A DNA stretch of 64,000 nt from Celeribacter naphthalenivorans (GTDB lineage Bacteria > Pseudomonadota > Alphaproteobacteria > Rhodobacterales > Rhodobacteraceae), in NCBI RefSeq assembly GCF_020524585.1, contig NZ_JAIVLK010000004.1:186001-250000 (forward strand), read 5' to 3'. Below are positions 13,973-31,659 of this stretch, one piece after another. The notes beneath the pieces were generated by a model that saw nothing but the letters and a program-made list of their open reading frames with translations, was not told the DNA's origin and ran no database searches. Every line of letters starts with the position of its first letter. Positions within the stretch are counted from its first letter, which is position 1. Made by a program: the position numbers and the translations under genes.

Positions 13973-15250
13973 ATGACCATGTCAAATGCGCGCGCCGGCT
14001 GGACACGGCGTAAATTTCTGACAACGACAGGTGCTGGCATTGCAGCAAGCACACTCGCAGCTCCGATGGTTTGGTCCCAGAACATCAAGGATATCGTCTT
14101 GCGCACGACTTCGGGGGGCACCGCGGCCACCAATGCGCTGGCGCAAAAGGCCAAAGAGGATACCGGCATTACGATCCAGTACACCGCTTTGGACACCGAC
14201 TCTGTGAACAGCCGGGTCGCCACACAGCCGAACAGCTACGAATTGGCCGGATTGGAATACTTCAGCATCAAAAAACTCTATCCGACGGGTGTTTTGCAGC
14301 CGATCGACACCAAGCGGATCAAATACTATGACGATATCGTGCCGCTGTTCAAAACCGGCAAGCTGAACGCGGACAGCATGGAGGCGCAGGGGACGGCCCC
14401 GCACACGGTGAACTTTGTTGAAGACTTCGAGTCCACGGACTTCGCGAGTGGCGAGACCGAGTGGATGACGCTGATCCCGACCTCTTACAATGCCGATACT
14501 TTGGGCATTCGCACCGACATGATCGACCGCAAGATCACCAGCTGGGCCGACATCATGGACCCTGAGTTCAAGGGCAAATCCGCGTTGGTCAATATCCCGT
14601 CGATCGGCATCATGGATGCGGCGATGATCCTTGAGGCGATGGGGGAGATCACCTATGGCGACAAAGGCAACATGACCCGTGCGGAAATCGACAAAACCAT
14701 CGAGTTCCTGATCCGCGCCAAACGCGACCGCCACTTCCGCGCCCTGTGGCAAAGCTTTGACGAAAGCATCAACCTTATGACTTCGGGCGAAGTTGTGATC
14801 CAGTCGATGTGGTCCCCCGCTGTTGCGGCGGTCCGTTCGCAGGGTATTCCCTGTGTCTATCAGGCTCTGAATGAAGGTTATCGGGCCTGGGGCGGCGGCA
14901 CAGGTATCGCCCGCCACGTGACGGGTCTTCAGCTCGATGCGGTCTATGAGTATTTCAATTGGTATCTCTCTGGTTGGGCCGGCGCCTATCTCAACCGTGA
15001 AGGTTACTACAGCGCCGTTCTGAAAACCTCCAAGGACTACATGACGGAAAACGAGTGGGGCTTCTGGATGGAAGGCAAACCCGCCACTGCGCCGATCGTC
15101 AGCCCCGAAGGGGTGAAGATGGAAGATGTCGGCGCGGTCCGTGACGGCGGTTCGTTCGAGGACCGTATGGGGAACATCGCATGTTGGAATTCCGTCATGG
15201 ATGAAGACCGCTATATGGTTATGAAATGGGCTGAATTCGCGACAGCTTGA
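13973..15250 (+). CDS. Spermidine/putrescine-type ABC substrate-binding protein (Tat-exported)
   Basis: A 425-residue periplasmic binding protein of the PotD/AfuA group. The N-terminus has a twin-arginine signal (TRRKFL, residues 11-16) followed by a hydrophobic stretch, so it is probably exported folded by Tat. The central ligand region (DFASGETEWMTLIPTSYNAD) and the NLMTSGEVVIQSMWSPAV segment match this group. It starts the four-gene importer unit 13973-18045. Its genomic partners (hydantoinase-type enzyme before, ureidoglycine aminohydrolase-like cupin after) suggest a nitrogen-rich cyclic ligand rather than a polyamine. Confidence 0.88.
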   Translation: MTMSNARAGWTRRKFLTTTGAGIAASTLAAPMVWSQNIKDIVLRTTSGGTAATNALAQKAKEDTGITIQYTALDTDSVNSRVATQPNSYELAGLEYFSIKKLYPTGVLQPIDTKRIKYYDDIVPLFKTGKLNADSMEAQGTAPHTVNFVEDFESTDFASGETEWMTLIPTSYNADTLGIRTDMIDRKITSWADIMDPEFKGKSALVNIPSIGIMDAAMILEAMGEITYGDKGNMTRAEIDKTIEFLIRAKRDRHFRALWQSFDESINLMTSGEVVIQSMWSPAVAAVRSQGIPCVYQALNEGYRAWGGGTGIARHVTGLQLDAVYEYFNWYLSGWAGAYLNREGYYSAVLKTSKDYMTENEWGFWMEGKPATAPIVSPEGVKMEDVGAVRDGGSFEDRMGNIACWNSVMDEDRYMVMKWAEFATA

Positions 15251-15324
15251 CCCAAGATCGGGAGGCGCTGCGGCGTCTCCCACACCTCATCAGTCGCCAC
15301 AAGAAAAAGAATGACAGGATACGA

Positions 15325-16341
15325 ATGCCCACCAAGGATGTAGAACTGATCGGTCTCACGAAGCGCTTCGGAGATTCGGTCGCGGTCAAAGCCATCGACC
15401 TCCAAATCTACGAGGCCAGCTACTGTTGTTTGCTTGGACCCTCTGGCTGCGGAAAGTCGACGACCCTGCGTATGATTGCCGGGCATGAAGAGGTAAGTGA
15501 GGGCGACATCCTCGTCAAAGGGCGTCAGGTCACATGGCAACAGCCATCGAAGCGGGGCACCGCGATGATGTTCCAAAACTATGGCCTTTTTCCTCATCTC
15601 AATGTCGAAGAAAACGTTGCGTTTAGCCTGCGGATGCAGGGCGTCGGCAAGGCGGAGCGGTCGCGTCGGGCGCGCGAATTGATCGAGTTGGTCGAAATGC
15701 AGGCGTATTTGCATCGTCGCCCGCATGAGCTTTCGGGCGGTCAGCAGCAGCGTGTTGCTCTCGCCCGCGCTCTGAGTACCGAACCGTCAATTCTGCTGTT
15801 GGATGAGCCGCTTTCGGCGCTTGATCCGTTCTTGCGGATCCGGATGCGAGAGGAACTCAAACGCTTTCAGCGAGAATTGGGCATCACCTTCATCCATGTC
15901 ACGCACAGTCAGGATGAGGCATTGGCGCTCGGTGATCAGGTCGTCGTCATGCAGGATGGCGAAATTCGCCAAAGTGGCACAGCGCGAGAGGTGTATGACA
16001 CCCCTTCGAATGAATTCGTGGCCCGCTTTATCGGCGGCCACAATATCCTGAAAACGGAGACGGGCACTGTCTCCGTGCGTGCGGACCATATGGATCTCCA
16101 TGTCGGCGGGCTGCCGAGTGAGGCAGGTGCGAGGGCGCGCTTGGGTCAGGTTGTTGCACTGGAATACCAAGGCAGCCGCATCCGGGTCACCGTGTCCGAA
16201 AACCCGGATCAGGACGAAGCAAGACATGTGGTCGAACTGTCCGACCGCAGTTTCTATGCCGCTCCGGCGAACCCCGGCGACGCAGTTGGCATAAGCTGGT
16301 CTGCCGCTGATGAACATCTTTTGGCGCCGACCCATGCCTAA
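15325..16341 (+). CDS. PotA-type ABC transporter ATP-binding protein
   Basis: A 338-residue ATPase subunit of the spermidine/putrescine/iron group. Walker A (GPSGCGKST), Q-loop (MMFQNYGLFPHLNVEENVAF), signature (LSGGQQQRVALARAL), Walker B (LLLDEPLSALD) and the switch histidine (HVTHSQDEA) are intact, followed by a C-terminal TOBE-like domain from about residue 240. ATG 15325 has AGGA six bases upstream; the frame is open to 15247 but the extra residues are not conserved-looking. It is in one operon with the binding protein and two permeases. Confidence 0.92.
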   Translation: MPTKDVELIGLTKRFGDSVAVKAIDLQIYEASYCCLLGPSGCGKSTTLRMIAGHEEVSEGDILVKGRQVTWQQPSKRGTAMMFQNYGLFPHLNVEENVAFSLRMQGVGKAERSRRARELIELVEMQAYLHRRPHELSGGQQQRVALARALSTEPSILLLDEPLSALDPFLRIRMREELKRFQRELGITFIHVTHSQDEALALGDQVVVMQDGEIRQSGTAREVYDTPSNEFVARFIGGHNILKTETGTVSVRADHMDLHVGGLPSEAGARARLGQVVALEYQGSRIRVTVSENPDQDEARHVVELSDRSFYAAPANPGDAVGISWSAADEHLLAPTHA

Positions 16342-17227
16342 AAATCCAGCCATGCAGCCCCAAGCCCCCAAACGCCCGCTCTTCGAGCGCCTTCTGCCTT
16401 ACATGCAGATCGCGCCGCTCGCCCTGCTGCTCTGTTTTTTCCTTCTCATCCCGCTCGTCATGATCGTGACGGTGAGTTTTTGGAACTATAATGGGTTTCA
16501 GGTTGTCCCGGACATCGTGCTTTTCAACTACACAGAGATGCTGGGCTCGGCGACCATCTGGCGGACTCTGTTCAGCACCATTCTCTTTACCCTCACCACG
16601 CTCGCAGTGACGGCGGCCCTTGGCTTTGCCATCGCCTATCATATCGCGTTTTACGTCAGAACACCGCTCATGCGAACGGTGTTGTTCATGGCCTGCACGA
16701 TCCCGTTCCTGACGTCGAACATCATCCGGATGATATCCTGGGTTCCGTTCCTCGGGCGACAAGGGCTCATCAACTCCATGCTGATGGATATCGGTCTGAT
16801 AGATCAGCCGCTGGATTTCCTGCTCTATTCGCGCTTCGCGATCTGTCTGGTCTACGTGTATCTCTTCACGCTTTTCATGGTGACGCCGCTCTACAACGCC
16901 ATGTCTCGTATCGATCGCAGTGTGATTGAAGCTGCCATCGACGCCGGTGCGACGCCCGTTCAGATCATGTTTTGGGTCGTGTTGCCGCTTTGTAAAACCG
17001 GGTTCGCGATTGGTGCGGTGTTCGTCATCACCGTGGTCATGGGCGATTTCGTGACAGTGCGCATCATGGGGGGCGGGCATAGCGCCACGACCGGATACCT
17101 CATCCTCAACCAAATTTCGTTGCTCCAATATCCAGCCGCATGTGCGAATGCCGTTATGCTCCTCGTTGTCGTGATGAGTGCGATCGGTGGCCTTTTGCGC
17201 GGCGTCGACATCAGGAAAGCACTATGA
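16334..17227 (+). CDS. PotB-type ABC transporter permease
   Basis: A 297-residue inner-membrane permease with about six membrane segments. The cytoplasmic EAA loop is EAAIDAGATPVQIMFWVVLP. The chosen ATG at 16334 overlaps the end of the ATPase gene by eight bases; an in-frame ATG at 16310 is an alternative. Its stop overlaps the ATG of the second permease (ATGA), so the two membrane subunits are translationally coupled. Together they form the channel of the importer headed by the Tat-exported binding protein. Confidence 0.9.
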   Translation: MPKNPAMQPQAPKRPLFERLLPYMQIAPLALLLCFFLLIPLVMIVTVSFWNYNGFQVVPDIVLFNYTEMLGSATIWRTLFSTILFTLTTLAVTAALGFAIAYHIAFYVRTPLMRTVLFMACTIPFLTSNIIRMISWVPFLGRQGLINSMLMDIGLIDQPLDFLLYSRFAICLVYVYLFTLFMVTPLYNAMSRIDRSVIEAAIDAGATPVQIMFWVVLPLCKTGFAIGAVFVITVVMGDFVTVRIMGGGHSATTGYLILNQISLLQYPAACANAVMLLVVVMSAIGGLLRGVDIRKAL

Positions 17228-18045
17228 TCCCGCGCAGTCCCCTTTCCCTCTTCTTGAAAGTCCTCATGGGCCTGTTCTTGCTGTTTCTCTACGGCCCGAC
17301 ACTGACCATCATGATCCTGTCTTTTCAGGGCCCGCAAGGCGGTCTCACCTTTCCGCTCAAAGATGTCTCGCTCCACTGGTTTAGCTCTCTTTTCCAAGAG
17401 CAGCGGGTCGGAGATATCGGCAGCTCCTTTCGGCGGTCTTTGACCCTCGCCGTGCTGGTGATGTTCGTGAATGTCCTGATTGTCGTGCCGGCGGGATTGG
17501 CTTTGCGTCGCGGTTTCCGCGGCAGTCGCGTGATCTTTACCCTGACGATCGCGAGCCTCGTGGTGCCGTCGATCTTGGTCAGCATGGGGATTGGTCTGCT
17601 CTTTTCTCAAACGGGCGTGGAAGCGAACTGGTACACGAGTGGCCTCGGGGCTCACCTCACCTGGACTGTGCCATTCGGGGTGCTGATCATGATTGGCGTT
17701 TTTGCCCGCCTGAACCCCACTTACGAAGAAGCCGCCCGAGACGCCGGAGCGTCGCGCTGGCAGAGCTTTCGCTTTGTGGTGCTGCCCATCATCTTGCCCA
17801 ATATCGTCGGCGTGCTGCTGTTTGGTTTCTCGCTGTCCTATGACGAAATGCCACGAACGGTTCTGGCGGGCGGCGCGCACAACACCCTTCCGCTCGAGAT
17901 TTTCGCAATGACCAGCAATGTGACAACCCCGGTGCTCTATGCGCTTGGCACGATCACCACCTTGGTGTCCTTTGTTGTCATCTCGTTGACGCTTCTGTTC
18001 ATCACTCTGGCGCGACGCCGGACGGGGGCGGTGAAAAAAGCCTAG
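17224..18045 (+). CDS. PotC-type ABC transporter permease
   Basis: A 273-residue second permease of the spermidine-type importer. The N-terminal membrane helix (LMGLFLLFLYGPTLTIMILS) and the EAA loop (EEAARDAGASRWQSFRFVVL) are typical of PotC. The start at 17224 overlaps the stop of the preceding permease by four bases. It closes the transporter operon; the ureidoglycine aminohydrolase-like gene follows after 73 bases and may be cotranscribed. Confidence 0.9.
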   Translation: MIPRSPLSLFLKVLMGLFLLFLYGPTLTIMILSFQGPQGGLTFPLKDVSLHWFSSLFQEQRVGDIGSSFRRSLTLAVLVMFVNVLIVVPAGLALRRGFRGSRVIFTLTIASLVVPSILVSMGIGLLFSQTGVEANWYTSGLGAHLTWTVPFGVLIMIGVFARLNPTYEEAARDAGASRWQSFRFVVLPIILPNIVGVLLFGFSLSYDEMPRTVLAGGAHNTLPLEIFAMTSNVTTPVLYALGTITTLVSFVVISLTLLFITLARRRTGAVKKA

Positions 18046-18118
18046 GCCGCGATCAACGACGAAAATCCTTCACTCAAATTCCCTCTTAACCAAGGCGGTT
18101 TACCGCGTAGGAGCACAT

Positions 18119-18931
18119 ATGTTCGGACATGATTTCCAACCCGCACCCGGCACGTTTCGTCCCGGAGCCATCGGCGAAGCCAGATGCCGCATCAAGCACA
18201 ACTATGCATTGATGCCGCCCGAAGGTGTGATGGCAAGCCTGTTGCCGCAATGGCGGGATACGGTCGTGCGTTTTCTGGCCGGGCCAGAACTCGGCGCTCA
18301 ATTCGGGCAGGTCATGCTCGAAATCGAAGGCAGCGGTGGCACGCGGCAGCCTTTGAATGATGGGCTGCAACACTTCTACTACCTGTTCGACGGGGCCCTG
18401 ACCCTGTCCTCCGAAGCCACCGGCACCGTGGACATGACGCCGGGGAGCTTTGTGTTCCTGCCTGCCGGAGAAACACATGAAGTGCGCACCACGGATGGCG
18501 CGCCCGCTCGGCTCATGGATATTCGCAAGCCGTATTTTGCGGTCGAAGGCATCGACACGCCGCCTGCAATTGTCTCGCACCGCGATGAGCTTGAGAAGAT
18601 CAACCACAACGGAACAATTGGCCGCACGTGGGAACATATGCTGCCCTTTGGCGATCTGCGCTACGACTTCGAAGTGAACATTCTCAGCTTTGAGCCGGGC
18701 GCGAACTTTCCTGAGATCGAGACGCATATCAACGAGCATGGGTTGGTCATGCTTGAAGGGCAGGGCATGTATTTGCTTGGGTCCGACTGGCATGAAGTTT
18801 GGCAAGAAGACTTCATCTGGATGGGGGCCTACTGCCCGCAGTTCTTCTATCCGACGGGTTGGACCCGTTCTGCCTATATGCTCTATAAAAACGTCAACCG
18901 TGACACCGTTTTTACGCATCAAGTCCGGTAA
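18119..18931 (+). CDS. allE: (S)-ureidoglycine aminohydrolase-like bicupin
   Basis: A 270-residue protein made of two cupin domains (about 1-145 and 150-270). It strongly resembles AllE/UGlyAH, which converts (S)-ureidoglycine to (S)-ureidoglycolate and ammonia in allantoin breakdown. The expected Mn site and catalytic residues are present as E201, H203, H207 and Q241, in the same spacing as E235/H237/H241/Q275 of the plant enzyme. AllE is normally partnered by allantoinase and allantoate amidohydrolase; here the only candidate partner is the hydantoinase-type gene at 12468. It may therefore serve ureide breakdown or a related aminohydrolysis. Confidence 0.82.
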   Translation: MFGHDFQPAPGTFRPGAIGEARCRIKHNYALMPPEGVMASLLPQWRDTVVRFLAGPELGAQFGQVMLEIEGSGGTRQPLNDGLQHFYYLFDGALTLSSEATGTVDMTPGSFVFLPAGETHEVRTTDGAPARLMDIRKPYFAVEGIDTPPAIVSHRDELEKINHNGTIGRTWEHMLPFGDLRYDFEVNILSFEPGANFPEIETHINEHGLVMLEGQGMYLLGSDWHEVWQEDFIWMGAYCPQFFYPTGWTRSAYMLYKNVNRDTVFTHQVR

Positions 18932-19231: not shown

Positions 19232-20878
19232 TTACTCTTGGTCTTCGAGGCAGGGCACGCGAGATTTCGAAATCTCAAATCCGCGATAGCCTTCGTCCCG
19301 GATTTTGTTCATTTCGACCATGTAGTTGGACATGCCGCCCATGTACCACATCGAGGTTCTCGGTTTGCCAGGGATGTTCGCGCCGTTGATCCAGCTGTCG
19401 GTGACTTCGAACAATGTCCCGGCCATGCCTTCCTGACAAATGCCGACCCAATCTTCCTGAGCCGATTTCTCGACGTCGATCACGCCGTTGACCTCTTCTG
19501 CCTTTTCGATGAGGTCGGTGAAGTAATCGACTTGCCATTCGTGGACCAAAGGTTGGCTGGTGAACGGGCTGAAGGGGCCGAAAACCATGAGCAGGTTCGG
19601 GAAACCCGACACGGCAAGACCCGCGTAGGTATGGGGGCCATCCGACCATTCATCCTTAAGTTTGACGCCATCGCGGCCCGTGGTGTCAATCTTGAGGTAG
19701 TTGCCAGTCATCGCGTCGAAGCCCGTCGCCATGATAACGACGTCCAATTCGACTTCTTCGCCGCCGATGATGAGGCCGTTTTCAGTGAAGCGCTCGATCT
19801 GGTTGGTTTTGACATCATGCAGGGACACGTCGTCACGGTTGTAGACGGCATAGTAATTGTCGGCCGCGAGAGGACGTTTCGCGTAATAGTCGGTCGGCGT
19901 CAGTTTGCGGGCCGTGTCAGGGTCTTTCACGATTGCGTCGATCTTGGATTTGATGAAATCCGTTGCCGTTTTATTGGCCTCAGGCGTCACCACGAGATCC
20001 GAGAAGGTGCCGAGCAGGAATTCAAAGCCGTTGCCCTTCTGCCAGGCGGCTTCGAAAATCGCTTGCCGTTCTTCTTCGGACACGGACAGGGCCGGTGTCG
20101 TGCTCTCCTGGAAACCAAAGACGCTGGCGGTGTCCAAGGCCCAATCGCGATAGCCTTTGGGGTCTTTCTTGATCCGCTCGCGGGTGTCTTGGGGGAAGGG
20201 GCCGATGCCGAGAGGCACGACCCACTGCGGGGTGCGCTGAAGCACATGCAGGTGTTTCACCTTGCCGGCCAAAGATGTGATGACTTGGATGCCGGTCGAT
20301 CCCGTGCCAATCACGGCGACCCGTTTGTCCGACAGGTCGGGATCTTCCTTTGGCCACTTCGAGGACACGAGGACCTCGCCTTTGAACTTTTCTTGGTCCG
20401 GGAAGCTTGGCGCGTAGCTGGAGGACAGAAGACCGACCGATTCAATCACGTAGCGTGCTTTGATTTTCTCGCCGGTTTTGGTGGTCAATTGCCACTGACC
20501 TTCCTCTTCCAGCCAATCGGCTTTGGCGATGCGCGTGCCAAAGTTGATGGAGGATTTCAGGTCATGTTTGTCGGCGACGGCACTCAGGTAGGCCTGCACT
20601 TCTTCTTGTTGTGCATAGCGCTCGGACCATTGCCAGTTCTGAAACATATCCAGGTCGAACGAATAGGTATAAACCGTCGATTCCGTGTCGACGCGGCAGC
20701 CGGGGTAGCGGTTCCAATACCAGGTTCCGCCAACATCATCGGCCTCGTCAAAGCCTTGGGCGTTCAGGCCGAGTTTGTTTTTCATGGCGTAAAGCGCGTA
20801 AAGCCCGCCAACGCCTGCCCCGATCACGGCGACATCAAGTTGAAGCCCGTCAAGGGCTGCGGAATGTTCAGTGCTCAT
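19232..20878 (-). CDS. Baeyer-Villiger-type flavin monooxygenase lacking the fingerprint histidine
   Basis: A 548-residue FAD/NADPH monooxygenase of the cyclohexanone/phenylacetone monooxygenase group, which inserts oxygen next to a carbonyl to make an ester or lactone. The FAD-binding GAGVGG (20-25), VGGTWYWNRYPG (49-60) with D64, the NADPH-binding GTGSTG (191-196) and the KRPL arginine loop are present. The BVMO fingerprint FxGxxxHxxxWP is found at 165-176 as F-K-G-E-V-L-V-S-S-K-W-P, so V171 replaces the histidine. It is divergent from the aldehyde dehydrogenase, with operator-like repeats between them. The likely role is oxygenation of a cyclic ketone in region 2. Confidence 0.88.
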   Translation of the reverse strand: MSTEHSAALDGLQLDVAVIGAGVGGLYALYAMKNKLGLNAQGFDEADDVGGTWYWNRYPGCRVDTESTVYTYSFDLDMFQNWQWSERYAQQEEVQAYLSAVADKHDLKSSINFGTRIAKADWLEEEGQWQLTTKTGEKIKARYVIESVGLLSSSYAPSFPDQEKFKGEVLVSSKWPKEDPDLSDKRVAVIGTGSTGIQVITSLAGKVKHLHVLQRTPQWVVPLGIGPFPQDTRERIKKDPKGYRDWALDTASVFGFQESTTPALSVSEEERQAIFEAAWQKGNGFEFLLGTFSDLVVTPEANKTATDFIKSKIDAIVKDPDTARKLTPTDYYAKRPLAADNYYAVYNRDDVSLHDVKTNQIERFTENGLIIGGEEVELDVVIMATGFDAMTGNYLKIDTTGRDGVKLKDEWSDGPHTYAGLAVSGFPNLLMVFGPFSPFTSQPLVHEWQVDYFTDLIEKAEEVNGVIDVEKSAQEDWVGICQEGMAGTLFEVTDSWINGANIPGKPRTSMWYMGGMSNYMVEMNKIRDEGYRGFEISKSRVPCLEDQE

Positions 20879-21059: not shown

Positions 21060-21074
21060 GTATTACGGTATGAC
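21060..21074. promoter_or_regulatory. Predicted GntR-type operator A
   Basis: GTATTACGGTATGAC, one of six copies of a 15-bp element with consensus GTATTA-N3-TAATAC found only in front of region 2 transcription units. It lies about 180 bases from the monooxygenase start. An identical copy is found at 24971. Confidence 0.65.
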
Positions 21075-21150: not shown

Positions 21151-21165
21151 GTATTACGCTAATAC
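21151..21165. promoter_or_regulatory. Predicted GntR-type operator B
   Basis: GTATTACGCTAATAC, a perfect 6-3-6 palindrome and the best copy of the repeat. It ends 76 bases before the aldehyde dehydrogenase ATG, a position suited to repression or activation of that promoter. Confidence 0.7.
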
Positions 21166-21241: not shown

Positions 21242-22732
21242 ATGAACAAAAATTCACCCAAGCCGGTCGTGGCGGATACGACATTCGTGCAGCCGAACGG
21301 CCGCCTGCTGATCAACGGGAAATGGCTGGAAGGTGACGCGGAGTTTCCGGTCTCGAACCCGGCAACCGGCGAAGTTTTTGCCTCTGTGTCCAGTGCCGGG
21401 GAACGCGAAGCGCTGTTGGCGCTTGATGCTGCGGAAGCCGCGCAAGAGGGCTGGCGCAATGTTGCGCCGCGGCAGCGCGCTGAACTGATGCACCGGCTTT
21501 ACGATCTCATGCTGACACGGCAGGAAGATTTTGCGCGCGTCATGACGCTCGAAAGCGGCAAGCCTCTGACCGAGGCGCGGGCCGAATTTAAACTGTCCTG
21601 CGATTTCTTGCGCTGGTTTGCTGAACAAACGGCGCATCTGCACGGCAGCTACGCCCCGGCATCGAATGGCGGCTTTCGCATCATGGTGGCCAAACAGCCG
21701 ATCGGCCCTTGCCTTCTGATCACGCCGTGGAACTTCCCGCTTTTGATGATCGTTCGCAAGGGTGGCGCCGCTCTGGCCGCCGGTTGTACGATGGTCGTGA
21801 AATCGGCGCAGGAAACGCCGTTGACCTGCGCGCTCTTCGCGGAGCTGGTGCAGGAGGCCGGGTTCCCGGACGGGGTGATGAACCTGATTCATACGACAAA
21901 TTCTGCATCGGTTTCGACGCCGCTGATGAATGATAAACGTATCCGCAAGGTGTCGTTCACCGGCTCGACCCGTGTGGGGGGCTTGTTGATGGAGCTGGCG
22001 GCCAAGAACATCACGAAATGTTCGCTTGAGCTTGGTGGCGATGGGCCGTTTGTGGTTCTGGATGACGCTGACATCGATCTGGCCGTTGAGCAGGCCGTGA
22101 TCTGCAAATTCCGCAATGCGGGGCAGGCCTGTGTGGCCGCAAACAGAATCATCGTGGACAAAAAGGTCGAAAAAGAATTCACCGAAAAATTCCTCAAAGC
22201 GGTCGAGGCTCTGACGGTCGGCGATGGGATGACCTCTGTCGATGTCGGTCCGATGATCTCGGCCCGTCAGCGGGATCGTCTTGGGGATACGATTCGTTCC
22301 TTGGAGGCCGCAGGCGGAACGGTTGTGACCGGAGGGGCTGCCGTCGAGGGCCCCGGGTATTTCTTCCAGCCGACCGTCATTCGCTTCGATGCTCCGAACG
22401 AGGTGATGTGTTCCAACGAGCTGTTCGCTCCGGTTGCCACCATCTTCCCGGTTGAGAGTGCAGCAGAGGCGCTGGCCTTTGCCAATAAGAGCGACTTCGG
22501 TCTGGCCTCTTACGTGTTCACCAAAGATGTCTCGCGTGCGCTGACCTTCGGGGAGCGGCTTGAGTTCGGGATGGTCGGCATCAACCGTGGCATCATGGCT
22601 GACGCGGCCGCGCCCTTCGGTGGCACCAAGGCCTCCGGCATCGGGCGCGAGGGTGGTCAAGAGGGCATCTATGAGTTCATGGAAGACAAGTACATTGCCT
22701 TGACCGTCAATGAGGCACAGGGTGTTGCTTGA
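21242..22732 (+). CDS. NAD(P)-dependent aldehyde dehydrogenase (succinate-semialdehyde dehydrogenase-like)
   Basis: A 496-residue aldehyde dehydrogenase close in length and motifs to GabD. N163 (TPWNFP), K187, E263 (LELGGDGPF) and the nucleophile C297 (RNAGQACVAANR) form the catalytic set. The usual ELGGN is ELGGD here. GabD-type enzymes oxidise omega-oxo acids, so 5- or 6-oxo acids made from a ring compound would be suitable substrates. A near-perfect AGGAGG site precedes the ATG. It overlaps the iron alcohol dehydrogenase by one base (TGATG), so the two are coupled and probably act in sequence. Confidence 0.9.
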   Translation: MNKNSPKPVVADTTFVQPNGRLLINGKWLEGDAEFPVSNPATGEVFASVSSAGEREALLALDAAEAAQEGWRNVAPRQRAELMHRLYDLMLTRQEDFARVMTLESGKPLTEARAEFKLSCDFLRWFAEQTAHLHGSYAPASNGGFRIMVAKQPIGPCLLITPWNFPLLMIVRKGGAALAAGCTMVVKSAQETPLTCALFAELVQEAGFPDGVMNLIHTTNSASVSTPLMNDKRIRKVSFTGSTRVGGLLMELAAKNITKCSLELGGDGPFVVLDDADIDLAVEQAVICKFRNAGQACVAANRIIVDKKVEKEFTEKFLKAVEALTVGDGMTSVDVGPMISARQRDRLGDTIRSLEAAGGTVVTGGAAVEGPGYFFQPTVIRFDAPNEVMCSNELFAPVATIFPVESAAEALAFANKSDFGLASYVFTKDVSRALTFGERLEFGMVGINRGIMADAAAPFGGTKASGIGREGGQEGIYEFMEDKYIALTVNEAQGVA

Positions 22733-23991
22733 TGCTTGAGAGGGCAGATTCGATGGAAAATACACTTGGAATAGGGCTGGTGCGCCAGCCCAACACCGTG
22801 CTGTTCGGGCCCGGTCAGAGGCGTCAGCTTGGTCGTATCGCGGCCAGCATGGGAAAGTCCGTTTTGATCGTGACCGACGAACGCATGGCGGGCACAGACA
22901 GCTTTGCCGATATGGTTGCGGATTTGACGGCGCAGGGGCTGACGGTGGACAGCTTTACGGAAGCGCTTCCGGATCTGCCGCGCTCCAATGTCTTGGCCGT
23001 CGCGGAGCGGTTTGGCGCCAATCCGCCTGACCTGATCGTGGGGCTTGGTGGCGGGTCGTGTATGGATCTGGCCAAAGCTTGCTCTGTCGTTCTTCGTTTT
23101 GGCGGGGATGTGCGGGACTATTTTGGCGAATTCGCCGTGCCCGGGCCGACGGTCCCGACGATTGCCATTCCCACCACAGGCGGGACAGGGGCAGAGGTCA
23201 CCAATCTGGCGATTGTTTTCGACGACGAAAAGCAGATGAAAATGGCCATCGCGGATGCCTCTATTGTTCCTGATGTGGCCATTATCGATCCTGAGTTGAC
23301 GGTCACCTGCCCGCCGGGGCTGACGGCCGCAACCGCCGCGGATGCGCTGTCGCATCTGGTCGAAGGGTTCACGGCGCGTCCCAAGAACCCGTCTCCCGAC
23401 CAGCTCGCGACGGAAGTCTATGTCGGTAAAAACCGGATCACGGATGTGTTCTGTGAGGAGGGGCTGCGGTTGATGAATCGCTCTCTCGGCACGGTCGTAG
23501 AGACGCCGTCCGACTTGGCGGCGCGGTCGGATGTGATGTTTGCCGCCTATTGTGCGGGCATGGTCATCAACACGACGGGCACGGCGGCGGCGCATGCGAT
23601 CCAAAGCCCGATGGCCTCGATCGGCCATACCCCGCATGGCATCGGTGTGGGCGCTTTGCTGCCCTATGTCATGCGCGCCAACCAACCCTACGCGCGTGAG
23701 GAATTCGCACGTATGGCCGATATTCTCGGCGTTGGGGGAGGTCTGGAGTCTCTGGACGATAAAGGGCGCGCGGCGATTGCGCGGATCGAAGAGCTCTTGG
23801 CTGCGGCAGGCGTTCCGCTTGAATTGGAGTCCCTTGGGGTGAGCGAGGCGCATTTCGATCAGATCGCGCGCTCCGCTGTAACGGCGCGCCGACTGGTCCT
23901 CAACAATCCTGCACCGCTCACAGAAGATTTTGTGAAAAAGCTTTTGGCGCGCGGTGTGGCGAATGACCGGAGTTGGTGGGCCGCTCCGTAA
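22732..23991 (+). CDS. Iron-containing alcohol dehydrogenase
   Basis: A 419-residue group III (Fe) alcohol dehydrogenase. The NAD-binding GLGGGSCMDLAKA motif and metal-ligand regions (AADALSHLVEGF and HAIQSPMASIGHTPHGIG) are visible. It would oxidise a hydroxyacid or primary alcohol to the aldehyde that the coupled aldehyde dehydrogenase removes, mirroring ChnD/ChnE chemistry with a different protein family. The start codon at 22732 overlaps the upstream stop; ATG 22753 (MENTLG) with GAGAGGG upstream is an equally good choice. It converges on the GntR gene. Confidence 0.9.
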   Translation: MLERADSMENTLGIGLVRQPNTVLFGPGQRRQLGRIAASMGKSVLIVTDERMAGTDSFADMVADLTAQGLTVDSFTEALPDLPRSNVLAVAERFGANPPDLIVGLGGGSCMDLAKACSVVLRFGGDVRDYFGEFAVPGPTVPTIAIPTTGGTGAEVTNLAIVFDDEKQMKMAIADASIVPDVAIIDPELTVTCPPGLTAATAADALSHLVEGFTARPKNPSPDQLATEVYVGKNRITDVFCEEGLRLMNRSLGTVVETPSDLAARSDVMFAAYCAGMVINTTGTAAAHAIQSPMASIGHTPHGIGVGALLPYVMRANQPYAREEFARMADILGVGGGLESLDDKGRAAIARIEELLAAAGVPLELESLGVSEAHFDQIARSAVTARRLVLNNPAPLTEDFVKKLLARGVANDRSWWAAP

Positions 23992-24010: not shown

Positions 24011-24038
24011 TTGAGGCCGCTCTTGCGAGTGGCCTCAA
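24011..24038. other. Hairpin between convergent genes
   Basis: TTGAGGCCGCTC-TTGC-GAGTGGCCTCAA forms a 12-bp stem with one G-U pair. It lies between the iron alcohol dehydrogenase and the convergent GntR gene and reaches into the last codons of the latter. It could serve both directions as a terminator, though no good T tract follows on either side. Confidence 0.45.
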
Positions 24039-24727
24039 GCTTCGATCAAGGCCGCATTTCGGCTGATATATTCTTGCTCTGCATATTTGGCGGCGAGAAT
24101 GACGTGATCTTCTGCAGCGGTTGCTGCAGCCTGTCCATTATGCGCTTCGGCGGCTTCGTGGATGATCGTTTTGAGCTCTGCGATGGACTCTTCGGTGCGG
24201 CTTTCGTCCAGAAAGGCGAAGCGCCGGAAAATTGCGATCCGGGCATGAATGAGGCCAAGGGTTTCTCTGAGCACGTTGTTATGTGCGCCGCTGATCAGCA
24301 CATCATAAAACTCGGCCTTGATGAGTTCGCGGCTTTGGACATCGCCGTGGCGGTATTCTTTGTCCAAACGCGCGGCGATATTGAGCAGCTGCTGGCATTG
24401 CTCGTCGGAGGCGTTCTGCGCAAAAAGATTTGCGGTGAGGCCTTCGAGATTGGCTCGGACCACGTAGAGCGCTTGAATGTCTTGCTGGCTCAGGACGGTC
24501 ACGATTGGACCGGAGTTCGGGACAACCGTGATGAGGTGTTCGGATTCCAGCTGACGGAGAGCCTCACGGATGACGGTGCGCGACACGTCATATGTTTCGC
24601 ACAGAACGCTTTCGACGAGGCGTTGGCCAGGTTTGAGATTTTCTTGAAGAATGTCTTCGCGGATCATCTGCACAACTTGTTGGCGCAGGGGGGCTGCTGT
24701 TCTTGCGATTGCGCGCCGAGCTGGCAT
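24035..24727 (-). CDS. GntR-family regulator, FCD subfamily
   Basis: A 230-residue transcription factor with an N-terminal winged helix (residues about 12-75, ESVLCETYDVSRTVIREALR) and an all-helical FCD effector domain (about 95-225). In the FCD domain the segment AEFYDVLISGAHN has tyrosine where many members have a metal-ligand histidine. It is encoded inside region 2, and a copy of the 15-bp repeat lies 82 bases upstream of its start. This fits an autoregulated repressor of the surrounding degradation genes, with a pathway acid as likely effector. The regulon is inferred from repeat distribution. Confidence 0.88.
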   Translation of the reverse strand: MPARRAIARTAAPLRQQVVQMIREDILQENLKPGQRLVESVLCETYDVSRTVIREALRQLESEHLITVVPNSGPIVTVLSQQDIQALYVVRANLEGLTANLFAQNASDEQCQQLLNIAARLDKEYRHGDVQSRELIKAEFYDVLISGAHNNVLRETLGLIHARIAIFRRFAFLDESRTEESIAELKTIIHEAAEAHNGQAAATAAEDHVILAAKYAEQEYISRNAALIEA

Positions 24728-24970: not shown

Positions 24971-24985
24971 GTATTACGGTATGAC
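24971..24985. promoter_or_regulatory. Predicted GntR-type operator D
   Basis: GTATTACGGTATGAC, identical to copy A. It is set inside a wider inverted repeat (CCGTCAT...ATGACGG, 24962-24987). It ends 73 bases before the MBL-fold gene start. Confidence 0.65.
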
Positions 24986-25058: not shown

Positions 25059-25961
25059 ATGGTCGCAGCACTGCAAAATCAACAGAATGCAGGGTGGTAT
25101 AGATTTCGGATCGGGGATTTGGAATGCACGTCTGTGTGGGATGGCTACATTCATCACAGCTATGACGGTCTGTTTCCGAATGCCGACCCAGAGGAAATGG
25201 CGCGGCTGAAGGCCGAATACAGGTTGCCGATTGACTATATTCCGATGGATTTGAACCCTGTCGTTGTGAATATGGGGGACCGTCTCGTTCTGATCGATGC
25301 CGGTATGGGCCAGTATTCGGATATGTTCGGCGATAAAATGGGCCGGTTGTTGGAAAACATGGCGGCGGCGGGGCTTGATCCGGCTGATATCGACGTGGTT
25401 CTCATGACGCATCTTCACCCGGACCACAGCTTTGGTTTGAGACGCCCGGACATGTCCGCCGCTTTCCCGAATGCCGAAATCCATGTGAGCCGACAGGACT
25501 GGGAAGAGTGGACCGACGCTGAGAACCTGACGCGCAGCGATCATAAAAAGGCCTGGACCGAAGGGACGCTTGAGGCGCTCAAGCCCTATGAGGGTAAGGT
25601 GAAAACCTTTGAGATTGGGGTCGAAGTTCTGCCGGGTGTGACCTCGGTGTCGGCTGCGGGACATAGTTCTGGCCAATCCGCCTTTGTCTTTGAAAGCAAA
25701 GGGGAGAAGGTGATGTTCACCGGAGATCTGGCGCATCATCAGGTGTATGACCCCATCCACCCGGAATGGTATTTCCATATGGATTTCGACAGCGATCCGG
25801 CGCTCGGCGCGCAGGCGAAGCGTGATGTCTTCGAGAAGGTCTGCGCTGAGGGCATCCGCTATCACGGGTATCATTTCCCGTTCCCGGGTCTTGGCGATCT
25901 GACAAAGGAGGCCGACGGCACATTCCGCTTTCATTTGGAGCCGGTGACGCCCCGTCTCTGA
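25059..25961 (+). CDS. Metallo-beta-lactamase-fold hydrolase (candidate lactonase)
   Basis: A 300-residue MBL-fold enzyme without a signal peptide. The dinuclear metal motif is THLHPDHSFG (about residues 126-135), with the further ligands supplied by AAGHSSGQ and TGDLAHHQ and by YHGYHFPF near the C-terminus. Enzymes of this layout include N-acyl-homoserine lactonases and other ester or lactone hydrolases. In a pathway with a Baeyer-Villiger-type monooxygenase, the missing step is lactone opening, and this gene is the best candidate. It starts a short unit with an SDR 45 bases downstream, under operator copy D. Confidence 0.85.
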   Translation: MVAALQNQQNAGWYRFRIGDLECTSVWDGYIHHSYDGLFPNADPEEMARLKAEYRLPIDYIPMDLNPVVVNMGDRLVLIDAGMGQYSDMFGDKMGRLLENMAAAGLDPADIDVVLMTHLHPDHSFGLRRPDMSAAFPNAEIHVSRQDWEEWTDAENLTRSDHKKAWTEGTLEALKPYEGKVKTFEIGVEVLPGVTSVSAAGHSSGQSAFVFESKGEKVMFTGDLAHHQVYDPIHPEWYFHMDFDSDPALGAQAKRDVFEKVCAEGIRYHGYHFPFPGLGDLTKEADGTFRFHLEPVTPRL

Positions 25962-26006
25962 GACGGTTCCTCAGTTTGCGATCTTGATATGAATGGAGGA
26001 CAGGAG

Positions 26007-26723
26007 ATGCTGTCAAAAACGGCCATCGTAACCGGTGGCGCGCGCAATATCGGCTATGCCATCAGCAAGCGGCTCAGCGACGATGGATATCGCGTGTTCG
26101 TGCTGGATGTCGTTGCCCCGGAGGATGCCGCGCTTCTGGCGGATTTTCGTCAGGTGGACCTTTCCGATGTGGAAGCGACGCGGGCGACCGTGGCGGCAAT
26201 TATTGCTGAGCACGGGGTGCATTGTTTGGTGAACAATGTCGGGTTGGTGTTCCCTGCGCCGCTTGAGGATGTTGATCTGAGTGATTTCGACAAAGTGATG
26301 CATCTCAATCTGCGCGCGGCGATTGTGTGCGCCCAGGAGGCAGTGCCTGCCATGCGCCGCGCGGGCGCGGGAGGGCGCATTGTGTTCAACACCAGCCGCG
26401 TCACCAAGGGCAAGCTGGACCGTACGCTTTACTCGGCGTCCAAAGGGGCTGCGCAGTCCATGGCGCGCACCTGGGCGCTGGAATTGGCGCCGCATGGGAT
26501 CACCGTCAATTGCGTTGCTCCCGGCCCGATCGCGACCACGGCATTCTGGGACAACAATCCGCCAGATGCGCCGAAGACGCGCGCGATCATCGATCAAGTG
26601 CCTCTCGGTCGTATGGGGGAGCCTGAAGACGTGGCCAATGCCATCAGTTTCTTCTGCGATGACAAGGCGTCTTTCGTGACTGGGCAAACGCTCTTTGTCT
26701 GCGGGGGCGTGACTGTGGGCTGA
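26007..26723 (+). CDS. Short-chain dehydrogenase/reductase
   Basis: A 238-residue SDR. The cofactor motif is TGGARNIG, the NNVG motif is present (CLVNNVGLVF), and the catalytic YSASK follows a NTSR serine. The ATG at 26007 is preferred because GGAGG lies seven bases upstream; 25989 is an alternative. It probably oxidises a cyclic or secondary alcohol to a ketone. It is followed by a strong terminator, so it ends the MBL-SDR transcription unit. Confidence 0.88.
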   Translation: MLSKTAIVTGGARNIGYAISKRLSDDGYRVFVLDVVAPEDAALLADFRQVDLSDVEATRATVAAIIAEHGVHCLVNNVGLVFPAPLEDVDLSDFDKVMHLNLRAAIVCAQEAVPAMRRAGAGGRIVFNTSRVTKGKLDRTLYSASKGAAQSMARTWALELAPHGITVNCVAPGPIATTAFWDNNPPDAPKTRAIIDQVPLGRMGEPEDVANAISFFCDDKASFVTGQTLFVCGGVTVG

Positions 26724-26795: not shown

Positions 26796-26852
26796 AGCGT
26801 CGTTTGATGTGCTCGAAGTCGCTGTTTGCTTGGGAAACTGCGCCATCTTATC

Positions 26853-26867
26853 GTATTACGGTAAGTC
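26853..26867. promoter_or_regulatory. Predicted GntR-type operator E
   Basis: GTATTACGGTAAGTC, a copy of the region 2 repeat placed after the terminator and before the importer operon. It lies 34 bp (centre to centre) upstream of copy F, on nearly the same helical face. Confidence 0.6.
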
Positions 26868-26886
26868 AGCAAGATAATTCTTGACT

Positions 26887-26901
26887 GTATTATGGTAATA
26901 T
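26887..26901. promoter_or_regulatory. Predicted GntR-type operator F
   Basis: GTATTATGGTAATAT, an almost perfect palindrome of the same type. It lies about 92 bases before the ATG of the importer binding protein and close to the probable promoter. Confidence 0.65.
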
Positions 26902-26992
26902 TGGATGACGGTATGGAGCACCATGATACGCGCACGGCCCTGGGTGTTCTTTGGAGGAGATGAGGCGGTGCAACATCTGGGGAGGAGACCCA

Positions 26993-28252
26993 ATGAAAAA
27001 AACTGAGTCCGTGGAGAGCCGTATTGTGCGCGCTGGAAACTCCATTCATGAACCGTTCTCACGCCGCGTCTTCATGCAGCTGGCAGCAGCCGCTGGCATC
27101 ACCGGGGCGACAGGCCTTGCGACCACGACGTCGGCACAGGCCGCGACAACCGGGAAGATCATCTATCAGGTCGACGTGCTGCATTCCTATTGGGTGGAAT
27201 GGGTGAAAGGCTTCGAAGCTTGCACCGCTGCCCTGGGGCTGGATGGTGCGCAAATGCTGCACGGATCAGATCCGGCCAAACAGATCAGCCAGGTCCGCTC
27301 CGCCCCGCAACAGGGCGCGAAAATGTTCATCGGCCTGCCTTTCCCCGATGGCGCCGTGCCGCAGATGGCCAAGACGCTTCAGTCGTCCGGTATTTACTAT
27401 TCCAACATCTGGGAGCATCCCGCGTGGTTCTCTCCGGTCGATGTCGGCGACTACCATGTGCAATATTCCACCCCGAACTCTGAACTTGCGGGCTACGAAG
27501 TCGCCAAAGTGCTGTTCGAACGGATCGGCGGTGAGGGCAAGGTCGTCCATATCTGGGGGCTCCCCACGCCGACGGATGCCTTCCGCACGGCGGGTGTCAT
27601 GCGGGCGGCTGCGGAATATCCGGGCATCGAAGTGGTTGGCAATCTGCGAACCCAATGGGACCGGGAGAGCGGGCGCGATGCCATGTTGTCGATGATCACG
27701 GCGCATCCGGATCTCAAAGGTGTGATGGCGCAGAACGACTCGATTGCAGAGGGCGTTTTGGCGGTGTTGGATGAGCGGGACCGAACCGACATCCCTGTCG
27801 TGGGCATCGATGGTTTGCCCGATGGTCTGAACGCGGTGAAAAGCGGCCGCCTCGCCGCGACCCATTCTTCGCTCCCGGCGTATCAGGCGGCCTTTATGGT
27901 CACCTCTGTGTTCGATGCTTTGAACGGATGGAAGCCGAGCCTGCCCGAGCGGATGATGTATACCGAATCCGCCCTGATCACTGAGGACAACGTGCAGCAT
28001 TATCTGGACAACCTCTATGGCGCGGACGGTCCGGCCTATGATTGGACCAAGATGAGCCGCACGCTCAATCCTGATGACTGGAATCCGCAGGCGAAAATCA
28101 TGCCGATCGATCCGGAAACGCATTTCGCGTTGTTCCCGGACAATAAGGACCGGCTCAACCCGGCCTATGCCGACATGAAGAGCAGCGGCGAATTCGATCG
28201 CGTGGTTCAGCTCTATGAGGACCACTATATTTCCGGTCCGTTCAAAGCCTGA
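26993..28252 (+). CDS. Ribose-type ABC substrate-binding protein (Tat-exported)
   Basis: A 419-residue periplasmic binding protein of the LacI/RbsB-like group. A twin-arginine signal is visible (FSRRVFMQLAAAAG, residues 23-36), unlike most sugar-binding proteins, which use Sec. The body shows the type I periplasmic-binding fold with HPDLKGVMAQNDSIAEGVLA and VVGIDGLPDGLNAVKSG segments. ATG 26993 follows GGAGGAGACCCA. It heads the binding protein-ATPase-permease operon and is flanked by SDR genes rather than sugar kinases, so its ligand is probably the ring compound degraded by region 2. Confidence 0.88.
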   Translation: MKKTESVESRIVRAGNSIHEPFSRRVFMQLAAAAGITGATGLATTTSAQAATTGKIIYQVDVLHSYWVEWVKGFEACTAALGLDGAQMLHGSDPAKQISQVRSAPQQGAKMFIGLPFPDGAVPQMAKTLQSSGIYYSNIWEHPAWFSPVDVGDYHVQYSTPNSELAGYEVAKVLFERIGGEGKVVHIWGLPTPTDAFRTAGVMRAAAEYPGIEVVGNLRTQWDRESGRDAMLSMITAHPDLKGVMAQNDSIAEGVLAVLDERDRTDIPVVGIDGLPDGLNAVKSGRLAATHSSLPAYQAAFMVTSVFDALNGWKPSLPERMMYTESALITEDNVQHYLDNLYGADGPAYDWTKMSRTLNPDDWNPQAKIMPIDPETHFALFPDNKDRLNPAYADMKSSGEFDRVVQLYEDHYISGPFKA

Positions 28253-28269
28253 GCGCGGGACTTTCAAAC

Positions 28270-29826
28270 ATGACTGAGACTGTGAAGCACACATCAGCAG
28301 AGACCTCTGCTGTTGCGCTCGAACTTTTGGGCGTCAGCAAGTCCTACAACGGCATCCCGGCTATCCGGGATGTCTCCTTTCGGTTGCGGAAAAATACGGT
28401 CCTCGGGCTGGTCGGTGAGAATGGCGCCGGGAAATCGACGATTTTAGGCACCATCAATGGCGTGGTGTCGCCGGATGAGGGTGTCGTGCGCATTCATGGG
28501 GAGCAGGCCCATCTCGGGCACCCCGAAGAAGCGGCGCGCCATGGCATTGCAACTGTTTTTCAGGAACAGGGTCTGGTGCCGCAACTGAAGGTCTATGAAA
28601 ATGTTTTTCTGGGCCGCGAAGCCAAATTCACGACCTTTGGGGTTCTCGAACGTGACCGGATGATCCGGGTCACACAAGAGGTTCTCGAGGATCTGGGGAT
28701 CGACAATGTGGACCCGAAAGCGGTCACGGGGGATCTGTCCTTTGGGCAGAGGCAATTGGTGGAGATCGCCAAAGCCTTTGCGCTGTCTCGTGTCTATCCG
28801 GTCGAGCCGATCATCTTGCTGGATGAACCAACCTCCGCCCTGTCTGAGAATGAGGCCAACAAACTCTTTGAAGGCATTGCTCAGTGGCGGTCGAAGGCAT
28901 CCATCATCATCGTGTCGCACTCTATGGCGGACATCTTTCGGTGCTGTGATGAAATCGTGGCCCTCAAAGACGGGCAGGTGATGCAACAGCTGGAGGCCTC
29001 GGAAACCAGTCCGGATGGCCTGCATGAGCTGATTGTCGGGCGAAAGCGCGAAGAGGAATACTACAAGGAATTCCGTCAGCGCACACCGGACGATCAGGTG
29101 GTGATCTCGGTTCGGGATCTGGCGAAAGAGGGCGAGGTGGAACCGACCTCATTCGATTTGCATAAGGGAGAAATCTTGGGGGTTGCCGGCGTGCTTGGCT
29201 CCGGCAAGTCCGTCGTAGCGAGCATGATTGCGGGGTTGACGCCGCGCGATGGCGGGACGGTCATGATCCATGACAAACCGCTTGCGTCAGGCTCCAGCTT
29301 CCAGGCCATTTCTGAGGGCATCGGATATGTGCCTGCCGAACGCAATCTCGCGGGTATCATCGGGGCGCATTCTCTGGAGTGGAACCTCACCTTGCCCGGC
29401 CTGACCAATATTGCCGGGCCGCTGCTGATCGATCTGTCCTCCCGCAAGAGCGCAGAGGTCACCGATCACTGGTTGAAACGGTTGAAGGTGCGCGCACCGG
29501 GGCGGCGGGCTTTGGCGCGCAACCTGTCGGGGGGCAACCAGCAAAAGGTTGTCTTTGCCAAATGGTTGGCACGCGGCGTCGACGTGCTGGTGCTCGATGA
29601 GCCGGGGCGGGGGCTCGATGTCGGGGCGAAAGAGGAAATCTACGATCTGATCCGCGATGTCGCGGACCAAGGGACCTCGGTTCTTTTGATCTCTGACAAT
29701 CTGCCCGAGCTGATCGGCCTGTCGAACCGCATTCTGGTGATGCGGCGCGGGCAGGTGACAGCCGAACTTCCGGCCGCCTTCGGGGCCAAGCCTGAAGAAG
29801 CCACCATCGTCAAAAGTATGATTTAA
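28270..29826 (+). CDS. RbsA/MglA-type ABC transporter ATP-binding protein
   Basis: A 518-residue ATPase with two fused ABC domains. The N-domain has a full Walker A (GENGAGKS), signature (LSFGQRQLVEIAKA) and Walker B (ILLDEPTSAL). The C-domain has GVLGSGKS and LSGGNQQKVVFAKW. This tandem layout is diagnostic of monosaccharide-type importers. It lies 17 bases after the binding protein gene and 14 bases before the permease gene. Confidence 0.92.
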   Translation: MTETVKHTSAETSAVALELLGVSKSYNGIPAIRDVSFRLRKNTVLGLVGENGAGKSTILGTINGVVSPDEGVVRIHGEQAHLGHPEEAARHGIATVFQEQGLVPQLKVYENVFLGREAKFTTFGVLERDRMIRVTQEVLEDLGIDNVDPKAVTGDLSFGQRQLVEIAKAFALSRVYPVEPIILLDEPTSALSENEANKLFEGIAQWRSKASIIIVSHSMADIFRCCDEIVALKDGQVMQQLEASETSPDGLHELIVGRKREEEYYKEFRQRTPDDQVVISVRDLAKEGEVEPTSFDLHKGEILGVAGVLGSGKSVVASMIAGLTPRDGGTVMIHDKPLASGSSFQAISEGIGYVPAERNLAGIIGAHSLEWNLTLPGLTNIAGPLLIDLSSRKSAEVTDHWLKRLKVRAPGRRALARNLSGGNQQKVVFAKWLARGVDVLVLDEPGRGLDVGAKEEIYDLIRDVADQGTSVLLISDNLPELIGLSNRILVMRRGQVTAELPAAFGAKPEEATIVKSMI

Positions 29827-29840
29827 AAGGAGGTTATGAC

Positions 29841-30827
29841 ATGACCGCAATGACAACAAATGCCGGCGTGCCCTCCAAGGGACAAAATGCGCTGCGCCCC
29901 TACTATGCCATTCTGGCACAGCTTTGCGCGCTGGGCGTGCTGATCGCCTTCTTCACCATCCAAAACCCGCTCTTCTGGACGCTGGCCAATTTTCAGAACA
30001 TCGGGATGCAATCCTCTGTCCTGCTCTTGGTCGCCTTGGCGGGCACATTGGTGATCATGATCGGGTCGATTGACCTTTCGGTCGGGGCCACCGTCGTTTT
30101 GGCCACGCTCGTCACCGCAATCAGTGTCGATCTGTACGGAAGTGTCGCGGCGATCTGTATCGCCATCGCCACAGGCGCCGTGGTGGGCGCCGTCAACGGG
30201 GGCTTGCTGGTGTATCTCAAGGTGCCCTCCTTTTTGGCGACGCTGGGCATGATGTCGGTTCTGGCCGGGCTTGCCGGGCATGTCTCCGGCGGGATCGCGA
30301 TCATCTATCAGGATTGGGGCTATACCGATCTGATCAACGGGTCGTTCATCATGGGCGTGCCGAATGTCGCTGCCATCGCTTTGCTCACGGCGCTGCTTTT
30401 GACCTTCGTCGCGCTGCGCACCAAATTCGGCCGCTATCTCTATGCCATCGGTGGCGGTGAGGTTGTGGCCTCCAACTCCGGTGTGCCGATCAACCGCTTC
30501 AAGATCAAAGCCTTCGTGGTTTGCGGTGCGCTTTGTGGTCTGGCCGGTGCGCTTTTGGCGGGACAGGTCGGGGCGGGGACGCCTGCGGCAGGCTCGTCGA
30601 TCTTGCTGAACTCAATCGCGGCCATCGTGATGGGGGGGACGGCCCTTTCGGGCGGTGTCGGCGGCCCACATCGCACCATTCTGGGCGTGTTGCTCATCGC
30701 GATCCTGTCCAATGGCATGGATGTGACCGGTGTCGGTGGCTTTACGCAAGACATCGTCAAAGGGCTGGTGATCATCGTTGCCGTGGCGATCACGACGGAC
30801 CGCAAGAAATATCAATTCATCAAATAA
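29841..30827 (+). CDS. RbsC-type ABC transporter permease
   Basis: A 328-residue inner-membrane permease of the ribose/xylose/autoinducer-2 family with eight to ten hydrophobic segments. The family motifs MIGSIDLSVGATV and AIGGGEVVASNSGVPINRFK are visible. It completes the importer together with the tandem ATPase and Tat-exported binding protein, and is followed by two SDR genes on the same strand. Confidence 0.92.
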   Translation: MTAMTTNAGVPSKGQNALRPYYAILAQLCALGVLIAFFTIQNPLFWTLANFQNIGMQSSVLLLVALAGTLVIMIGSIDLSVGATVVLATLVTAISVDLYGSVAAICIAIATGAVVGAVNGGLLVYLKVPSFLATLGMMSVLAGLAGHVSGGIAIIYQDWGYTDLINGSFIMGVPNVAAIALLTALLLTFVALRTKFGRYLYAIGGGEVVASNSGVPINRFKIKAFVVCGALCGLAGALLAGQVGAGTPAAGSSILLNSIAAIVMGGTALSGGVGGPHRTILGVLLIAILSNGMDVTGVGGFTQDIVKGLVIIVAVAITTDRKKYQFIK

Positions 30828-30878
30828 GACATTCCGCCCGGTTACGGCCGGGCCAAATGCACATTCATGGAGAAAGAA

Positions 30879-31649
30879 ATGACACAAGGACGTGTAGCCG
30901 GAAAAATCGCAATCGTGACAGGTGGCGCCCAAGGGATCGGGGCTGCGACAGCCCGGCGGTTGGCCGAAGAGGGCGCCGATGTCGTGATTTTCGACATTCT
31001 CGACAAGGCGCAGGAGGTTGCGGACGAGATCGATGCGGGCCCGACCTCGGCTCTGTTCGTCAAGGTTGACCTGACCAAGGAAGCCTCCGTTCAGCAGGGT
31101 ATCAAAGACGTGCTGGCGCGTTTCGGCACCATCGACATCCTCGTGAACAACGCCGCTACACCGGGGGTCAATAAGCTGGTCCACGAGATGAGCGAAGCCG
31201 AGTGGGACAGTGTTTTTAACGTCAATGTCAAAGGCACGTTCTTCACGACCAAACACGTGCTGCCGACCATGATGGAGGAAAAGACGGGGTCCATCGTCAA
31301 TTTCTCCTCCATCTATGGCCTGATCGGGTCTGCGGATTTGCCAGCCTATCATGCCACCAAAGGGGCTGTGTTGCTGATGACGAAGACGGACGCGATTTGC
31401 TATGCGCCCTATGGCATTCGCGTCAATGCCGTTCATCCCGGTTCGACCAAAACGGAGCTGTTCCTTCAGGCCGCCGACACTTGGCCCGAGGGGCGTGAGG
31501 CCTATCTCGCCATGATGGGCGAAAAGCATCCTTTGACCTTGGGTGAACCGGAAGATGTGGCCAATTGCGTGCTCTTTCTCGCCTCTGATGAGGCGCGTTT
31601 CGTGACCGGCTCCAGTGTCGTCTGTGACGGCGGCTATACCGCGCAGTAG
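30879..31649 (+). CDS. Short-chain dehydrogenase/reductase
   Basis: A 256-residue classical SDR with TGGAQGIG for cofactor binding, NNAA, a catalytic serine in VNFSSIYG and YHATK. Asp rather than Arg near the end of the second strand (VVIFDI) favours NAD. GGAGAAAG precedes the ATG at 30879; an in-frame ATG at 30867 is possible. It directly follows the importer genes and may oxidise the imported alcohol. Confidence 0.9.
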   Translation: MTQGRVAGKIAIVTGGAQGIGAATARRLAEEGADVVIFDILDKAQEVADEIDAGPTSALFVKVDLTKEASVQQGIKDVLARFGTIDILVNNAATPGVNKLVHEMSEAEWDSVFNVNVKGTFFTTKHVLPTMMEEKTGSIVNFSSIYGLIGSADLPAYHATKGAVLLMTKTDAICYAPYGIRVNAVHPGSTKTELFLQAADTWPEGREAYLAMMGEKHPLTLGEPEDVANCVLFLASDEARFVTGSSVVCDGGYTAQ

Positions 31650-31659
31650 GAGAGAAAAT

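Follow-up and report, generated by a model that had tools for sequence, protein, structure and literature searches.

The flavoprotein P0001, a type I Baeyer-Villiger monooxygenase (BVMO)-like enzyme encoded in the 64,000-nucleotide stretch of DNA analysed here (the window), has valine in place of the histidine of the second BVMO fingerprint. We report as new that loss of this histidine is coupled in evolution to a change from N or R to K or Y at residue 155, a result partly repeated in additional sequences. Judging from sequence, we give a probability of roughly 0.77 to the reading that P0001 is a working FAD/NADPH BVMO, which would turn a cyclic ketone into a lactone within a dedicated catabolic regulon, an alternative linker making the histidine unneeded.

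The second fingerprint of P0001 lacks its histidine

The relevant features of the gene are:

19232-20878, minus strand: P0001, type I BVMO-like flavoprotein with V171 at the fingerprint histidine site; OgBVMO clade, sister to cyclohexanone monooxygenases (CHMOs)
20351-20386 of the window, minus strand: second BVMO fingerprint, F165-P176, FKGEVLVSSKWP; V171 codon GTG at 20366-20368
20414-20416, minus strand: codon of Y155, the hinge residue co-evolving with 171 (position computed from the P0001 frame)

The open full-length frame encodes 548 amino acids. Its second fingerprint reads F165-K-G-E-V-L-V171-S-S-K-W175-P and fails the strict pattern FxGxxxHxxxW[P/D] through Val171, with F165, G167, W175 and P176 intact; we therefore do not count P0001 among the motif-positive type I BVMOs. 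A histidine displaced into the motif was excluded, as all histidines of the protein (residues 5, 105, 209, 211, 354, 416 and 446) lie outside it, with none between 105 and 209. The first fingerprint, [A/G]GxWxxxx[F/Y]P[G/M]xxxD, is present at residues 50-64 (GGTWYWNRYPGCRVD), as are both Rossmann motifs (GAGVGG, 20-25; GTGSTG, 191-196), and D64, R215, K334 and R335 are all intact. D64 and R335 align with the catalytic D59 and R329 of TmCHMO and were conserved in 182 of 182 aligned homologues, as well as in every further row covering the site. The preliminary description of this DNA was thus correct in the position and content of the missing histidine, and in stating that the other sites it named (both Rossmann motifs, D64 and the arginine) are kept.

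P0001 belongs to a clade with valine or leucine at the site

The top solved relative of P0001 was PDB 8wkc (E 3e-294; full-length identity about 76%), an entry whose title names it OgBVMO of Oceanicola granulosus; it has leucine at the fingerprint site (FKGEVLLASKWP) and tyrosine at 155. The name OgBVMO is that of the depositors, and our searches found neither a publication on it or on 8wkc nor its gene context. The predicted model of P0001 (pLDDT 88.6) gave Z scores of 53.4 against OgBVMO and about 50 against CHMOs. Valine occupies the site in orthologues from Maritimibacter harenae (89% identity), Xinfangfangia pollutisoli (75%), a Devosia MAG (73%) and Brucella daejeonensis (71%). A sequencing error was excluded, because four further genera, assembled independently, show the same valine and 8wkc has leucine.

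In a tree of 84 proteins, built with the fingerprint columns removed and the partial Devosia sequence omitted, the V/L enzymes formed a single five-member clade that includes OgBVMO (100 SH-aLRT), with V or L fixed. The CHMOs, all with histidine, were its sister (100 SH-aLRT). P0001 therefore falls outside the CHMO clade, in a separate sister clade; its phylogenetic placement and its fold are those of a BVMO. The clade with valine at 171 that the preliminary description had proposed looking for does exist.

The P0001 clade retains the equivalents of TmCHMO pocket residues L145, L146, F248, F279, F281, F434, T435 and W492. Four changes relative to TmCHMO are fixed in it, N436S, L437Q, S440V and F507W (S441, Q442, V445 and W511 in P0001 numbering). 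This pattern suggests CHMO-like chemistry on a different, perhaps more polar, substrate. Given its own pocket changes and its long stem branch (0.86), the clade could also have shifted in chemistry.

The histidine is missing from many homologues

The second fingerprint has been used as a defining filter and called a hallmark or super-hallmark (PMC4498894, PMC9044951). Mutation of its histidine reduced the efficiency of a CHMO and inactivated HAPMO (as cited in PMC3762062). BVMOAf1, with a natural glutamine at this position, is active and stereoselective, and rhodococcal BVMOs with incomplete motifs have been noted (PMC3762062).

Fingerprint residues were read by tblastn-based mapping. Among 182 homologues there were 141 with H, 15 with F, nine with V, four with R and three with I, among others. 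After the addition of 36 sequences from Gammaproteobacteria and plasmids, 169 of 218 had histidine and 49 (22%) did not, a figure that is not a family-wide rate, since the samples were chosen by similarity to a histidine-less query and were mostly alphaproteobacterial. At least 10-11 changes between histidine and non-histidine occurred on the trees. Other histidine-less BVMO-like clades each had their own fixed residue at the site, either R/L (L011, L015, L016, L073) or F (L061, L062, L066, L068-L072); the F clade came mostly from one alphaproteobacterial family (f171).

The preliminary description had called this histidine essential in type I BVMOs, a view left unsupported by the 22% of sampled homologues, spread over many lineages, that lack it, the structure of OgBVMO solved with leucine and the active glutamine enzyme BVMOAf1 (PMC3762062). 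On the present evidence it is the motif, rather than P0001, that is the exception. Whether this "essential" residue is needed probably depends on context: the histidine looks conditionally essential, and dispensable in some linker contexts. Use of the motif as a BVMO filter may therefore miss a considerable fraction of the genuine BVMOs.

Loss of the histidine is coupled to residue 155

The FAD-NADP linker carries the fingerprint motif, and both BVMO motifs are touched by the first hinge, TmCHMO 151-153 (PMC9044951). Residue 155 of P0001 corresponds to TmCHMO Asn150, directly before this hinge. In the 182-homologue set, residue 155 was mostly N, R, T, L or Q where 171 was histidine, with K or Y in only 7 of 141 such rows, compared with 36 of the 41 rows without it. 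Most non-histidine lineages had K, and the P0001 clade had Y.

Independent-pair tests of the coupling were not significant, with too few supported pairs, so we used a rate model with all other columns as control. Comparing dependent with independent change of K155 and residue 171 on the tree gave a likelihood ratio of 44.1, the strongest of every testable column (next best 21.7; 99th percentile about 17). The fitted rate of histidine loss was approximately 20-fold higher with K155 (LR 10, unequal rates), in a fit that places K at the root and whose absolute rates are untrustworthy. In the new sequences, the association held for K/Y (odds ratio 10, Fisher P = 0.013) and was weaker for K155 alone (Fisher P = 0.054), relatedness being ignored in both tests; exceptions to the pairing there included Q171/N155 and F171/N155. 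The distant actinobacterial homologue L215, from a plasmid of Rhodococcus sp. ZPP, had the same V171/Y155 pair as the P0001 clade, perhaps by convergence. Our literature search found no paper describing the 155-171 coupling, an absence that is no proof of novelty.

Residue 155 may compensate for loss of the histidine by physical contact. A further proposal, to which we give slightly less than even odds, is that residue 155, 16 positions upstream of the fingerprint site, decides whether the histidine can be lost, many lineages having acquired K155 first and lost the histidine afterwards with Baeyer-Villiger chemistry retained. The coupling offers a concrete, cheap and direct test of the role of the fingerprint histidine, a question asked since the motif was defined.

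P0001 lies in a conserved gene cluster with a private candidate operator

An aldehyde dehydrogenase (ALDH) and an iron-containing alcohol dehydrogenase (Fe-ADH) face the BVMO across a 363-base gap, followed by a GntR regulator, a metallo-beta-lactamase (MBL)-fold hydrolase, a short-chain dehydrogenase (SDR), an ABC importer and two further SDRs:

21060-21073, no strand: operator-like palindrome GTATTACGGTATGA in the BVMO/ALDH divergent promoter region
21151-21164, no strand: second operator-like copy, GTATTACGCTAATA, in the same promoter region
21242-22732, plus strand: SSADH-like aldehyde dehydrogenase, putatively oxo acid to diacid (TIGR01780 501 bits, below cut-off; 5 genomes)
22729-23991, plus strand: iron-containing alcohol dehydrogenase, putatively hydroxy acid to oxo acid (conserved in 5 genomes)
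24035-24727, minus strand: GntR-family regulator (PhnR-like), presumed palindrome binder (conserved in 5 genomes)
24971-24984, no strand: operator-like palindrome before the lactonase gene
25059-25961, plus strand: metallo-beta-lactamase-fold hydrolase with HLHPDH, putative lactone hydrolysis (conserved in 5 genomes)
25989-26723, plus strand: short-chain dehydrogenase, possibly alcohol to ketone (kept with the cluster)
26846-26900, no strand: three palindrome copies with one mismatch each, preceding the ABC importer
26951-30827, plus strand: ribose-type ABC importer (binding protein, ATPase, permease), probable substrate uptake
30867-31649, plus strand: short-chain dehydrogenase
31615-32412, plus strand: short-chain dehydrogenase, likely start 31660 (72-74% identical to orthologues at the Xinfangfangia and Brucella loci)

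The genes for the BVMO, ALDH, Fe-ADH, GntR regulator, MBL-fold hydrolase and first SDR occurred together in five of five genomes, in varying order. The nearest NCBIfam models of the MBL-fold hydrolase were the AidB and YtnP lactonases, both below cut-off. Among 296 sampled genomes of the family, only the source genome had a close BVMO orthologue (other matches were about 37-43% identical) and only it had the MBL gene; the set therefore appears to travel as a unit. Plasmid and phage collections contained no close relatives (best 50%). In Maritimibacter (L003, 10393-12111), frames downstream of the BVMO look by eye like IS3-type transposases, which fits the patchy spread of the cluster. The diacid might feed into a beta-ketoadipate-like route, as is hinted by the surroundings of the cluster in the Devosia MAG (L006, 6724-8189), where its neighbours are a PcaR-type regulator and subunit A of a 3-oxoacid CoA-transferase.

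The palindrome GTATTACGNTAWNA had exactly three sites in the 4.36-Mb genome, all in promoters of the cluster (two at BVMO/ALDH, one at the lactonase gene), and the motif recurs in the corresponding intergenic gaps of relatives. This is strong evidence that the cluster forms one regulon, and GntR is the presumed binder of the palindrome.

A separate segment of the window (13973-18931) encodes an ABC transporter of the spermidine/putrescine type and then a cupin above the NCBIfam cut-off for TIGR03214, (S)-ureidoglycine aminohydrolase. In the loci of the four relatives, no homologues of this segment lay close to the BVMO within the reach of the contigs. The Pot-type transporter and the ureidoglycine aminohydrolase were dropped as pathway members, having no conserved linkage to the BVMO.

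Proposed function and alternatives

The layout of the cluster looks like a catabolic route from alcohol through ketone, lactone and hydroxy acid to diacid. The ABC importer would take up the substrate, and an SDR would oxidise the alcohol to a ketone, into which P0001 would insert oxygen to give a lactone. The MBL-fold lactonase would open the lactone to a hydroxy acid that Fe-ADH and ALDH could oxidise to a diacid, the whole cluster being controlled by the GntR regulator through the GTATTACGNTAWNA sites. We infer both the reaction of P0001 and its class of substrate (cyclic, probably polar). V/L171 and Y155 at the FAD-NADP hinge may form another linker configuration in which the histidine is unneeded; most other histidine-less lineages have K155. 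If this reading is right, marine and soil alphaproteobacteria would have in this cluster a complete candidate pathway for a cyclic substrate, equipped with an operator of its own.

The preliminary description had also raised an altered reaction, and P0001 could be a class B monooxygenase whose main activity is N- or S-oxidation, or an NADPH oxidase. The missing fingerprint histidine, the long stem branch and the residues S441, Q442, V445 and W511 fixed in the clade speak for this. We nevertheless consider it unlikely, since the histidine-less clade is natural, the catalytic residues are intact, the pocket is CHMO-like and the natural histidine-less BVMOAf1 acts on ketones (PMC3762062). The neighbourhood also argues against it: a lactonase-like MBL, an Fe-ADH, an ALDH and an SDR share one operator with P0001 and stay linked to it across genomes. 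Differing coupling or domain dynamics in P0001, which the same description had suggested, are plausible.

There is likewise only a small chance that P0001 is a true BVMO which converts an open-chain ketone to an ester, with the MBL hydrolase and the dehydrogenases processing the alcohol and acid halves. It is general knowledge that BVMOs act on linear ketones too and that MBL-fold hydrolases can cleave esters. However, one MBL, one Fe-ADH and one ALDH in series better fit ring opening, the nearest relatives are CHMOs with the same pocket core, and the nearest models of the MBL are lactonases.

A degenerate or inactive enzyme is very improbable: mutation of the lost residue inactivates HAPMO (PMC3762062), but the full-length frame of P0001 is open with all catalytic residues intact, and the orthologues in other genera that keep both V/L and the cluster are 71-89% identical. 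Remoter still is a codon error or a histidine displaced nearby, possibilities that the preliminary description had itself named and that the orthologues and the histidine positions rule out.

Comparison with known systems

BVMOAf1 of Aspergillus fumigatus is, like P0001, a natural type I BVMO without the histidine, and its activity has been shown (PMC3762062). It differs in having glutamine rather than valine and in being fungal, about 40% identical to CHMO and of different origin. OgBVMO, about 76% identical to P0001, shares its fold, lineage, non-histidine fingerprint site and Tyr155, with leucine where P0001 has valine. TmCHMO (5m0z) and the Rhodococcus Phi1 enzyme (6er9) are 45-47% identical to P0001 and have the catalytic D and R and most pocket residues in common with it. 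Whereas the CHMOs combine His166 with Asn150, the P0001 clade combines V/L171 with Y155, together with S, Q, V and W at four pocket positions. At the level of the pathway, clusters for cyclohexanol and cyclopentanol degradation consist of an ADH, a BVMO, a lactonase, an ADH and an ALDH, the same set of steps as in the P0001 cluster. The P0001 cluster differs from them in having an MBL-fold lactonase and an Fe-ADH, together with a ribose-type ABC importer and a GntR regulator whose operator is private.
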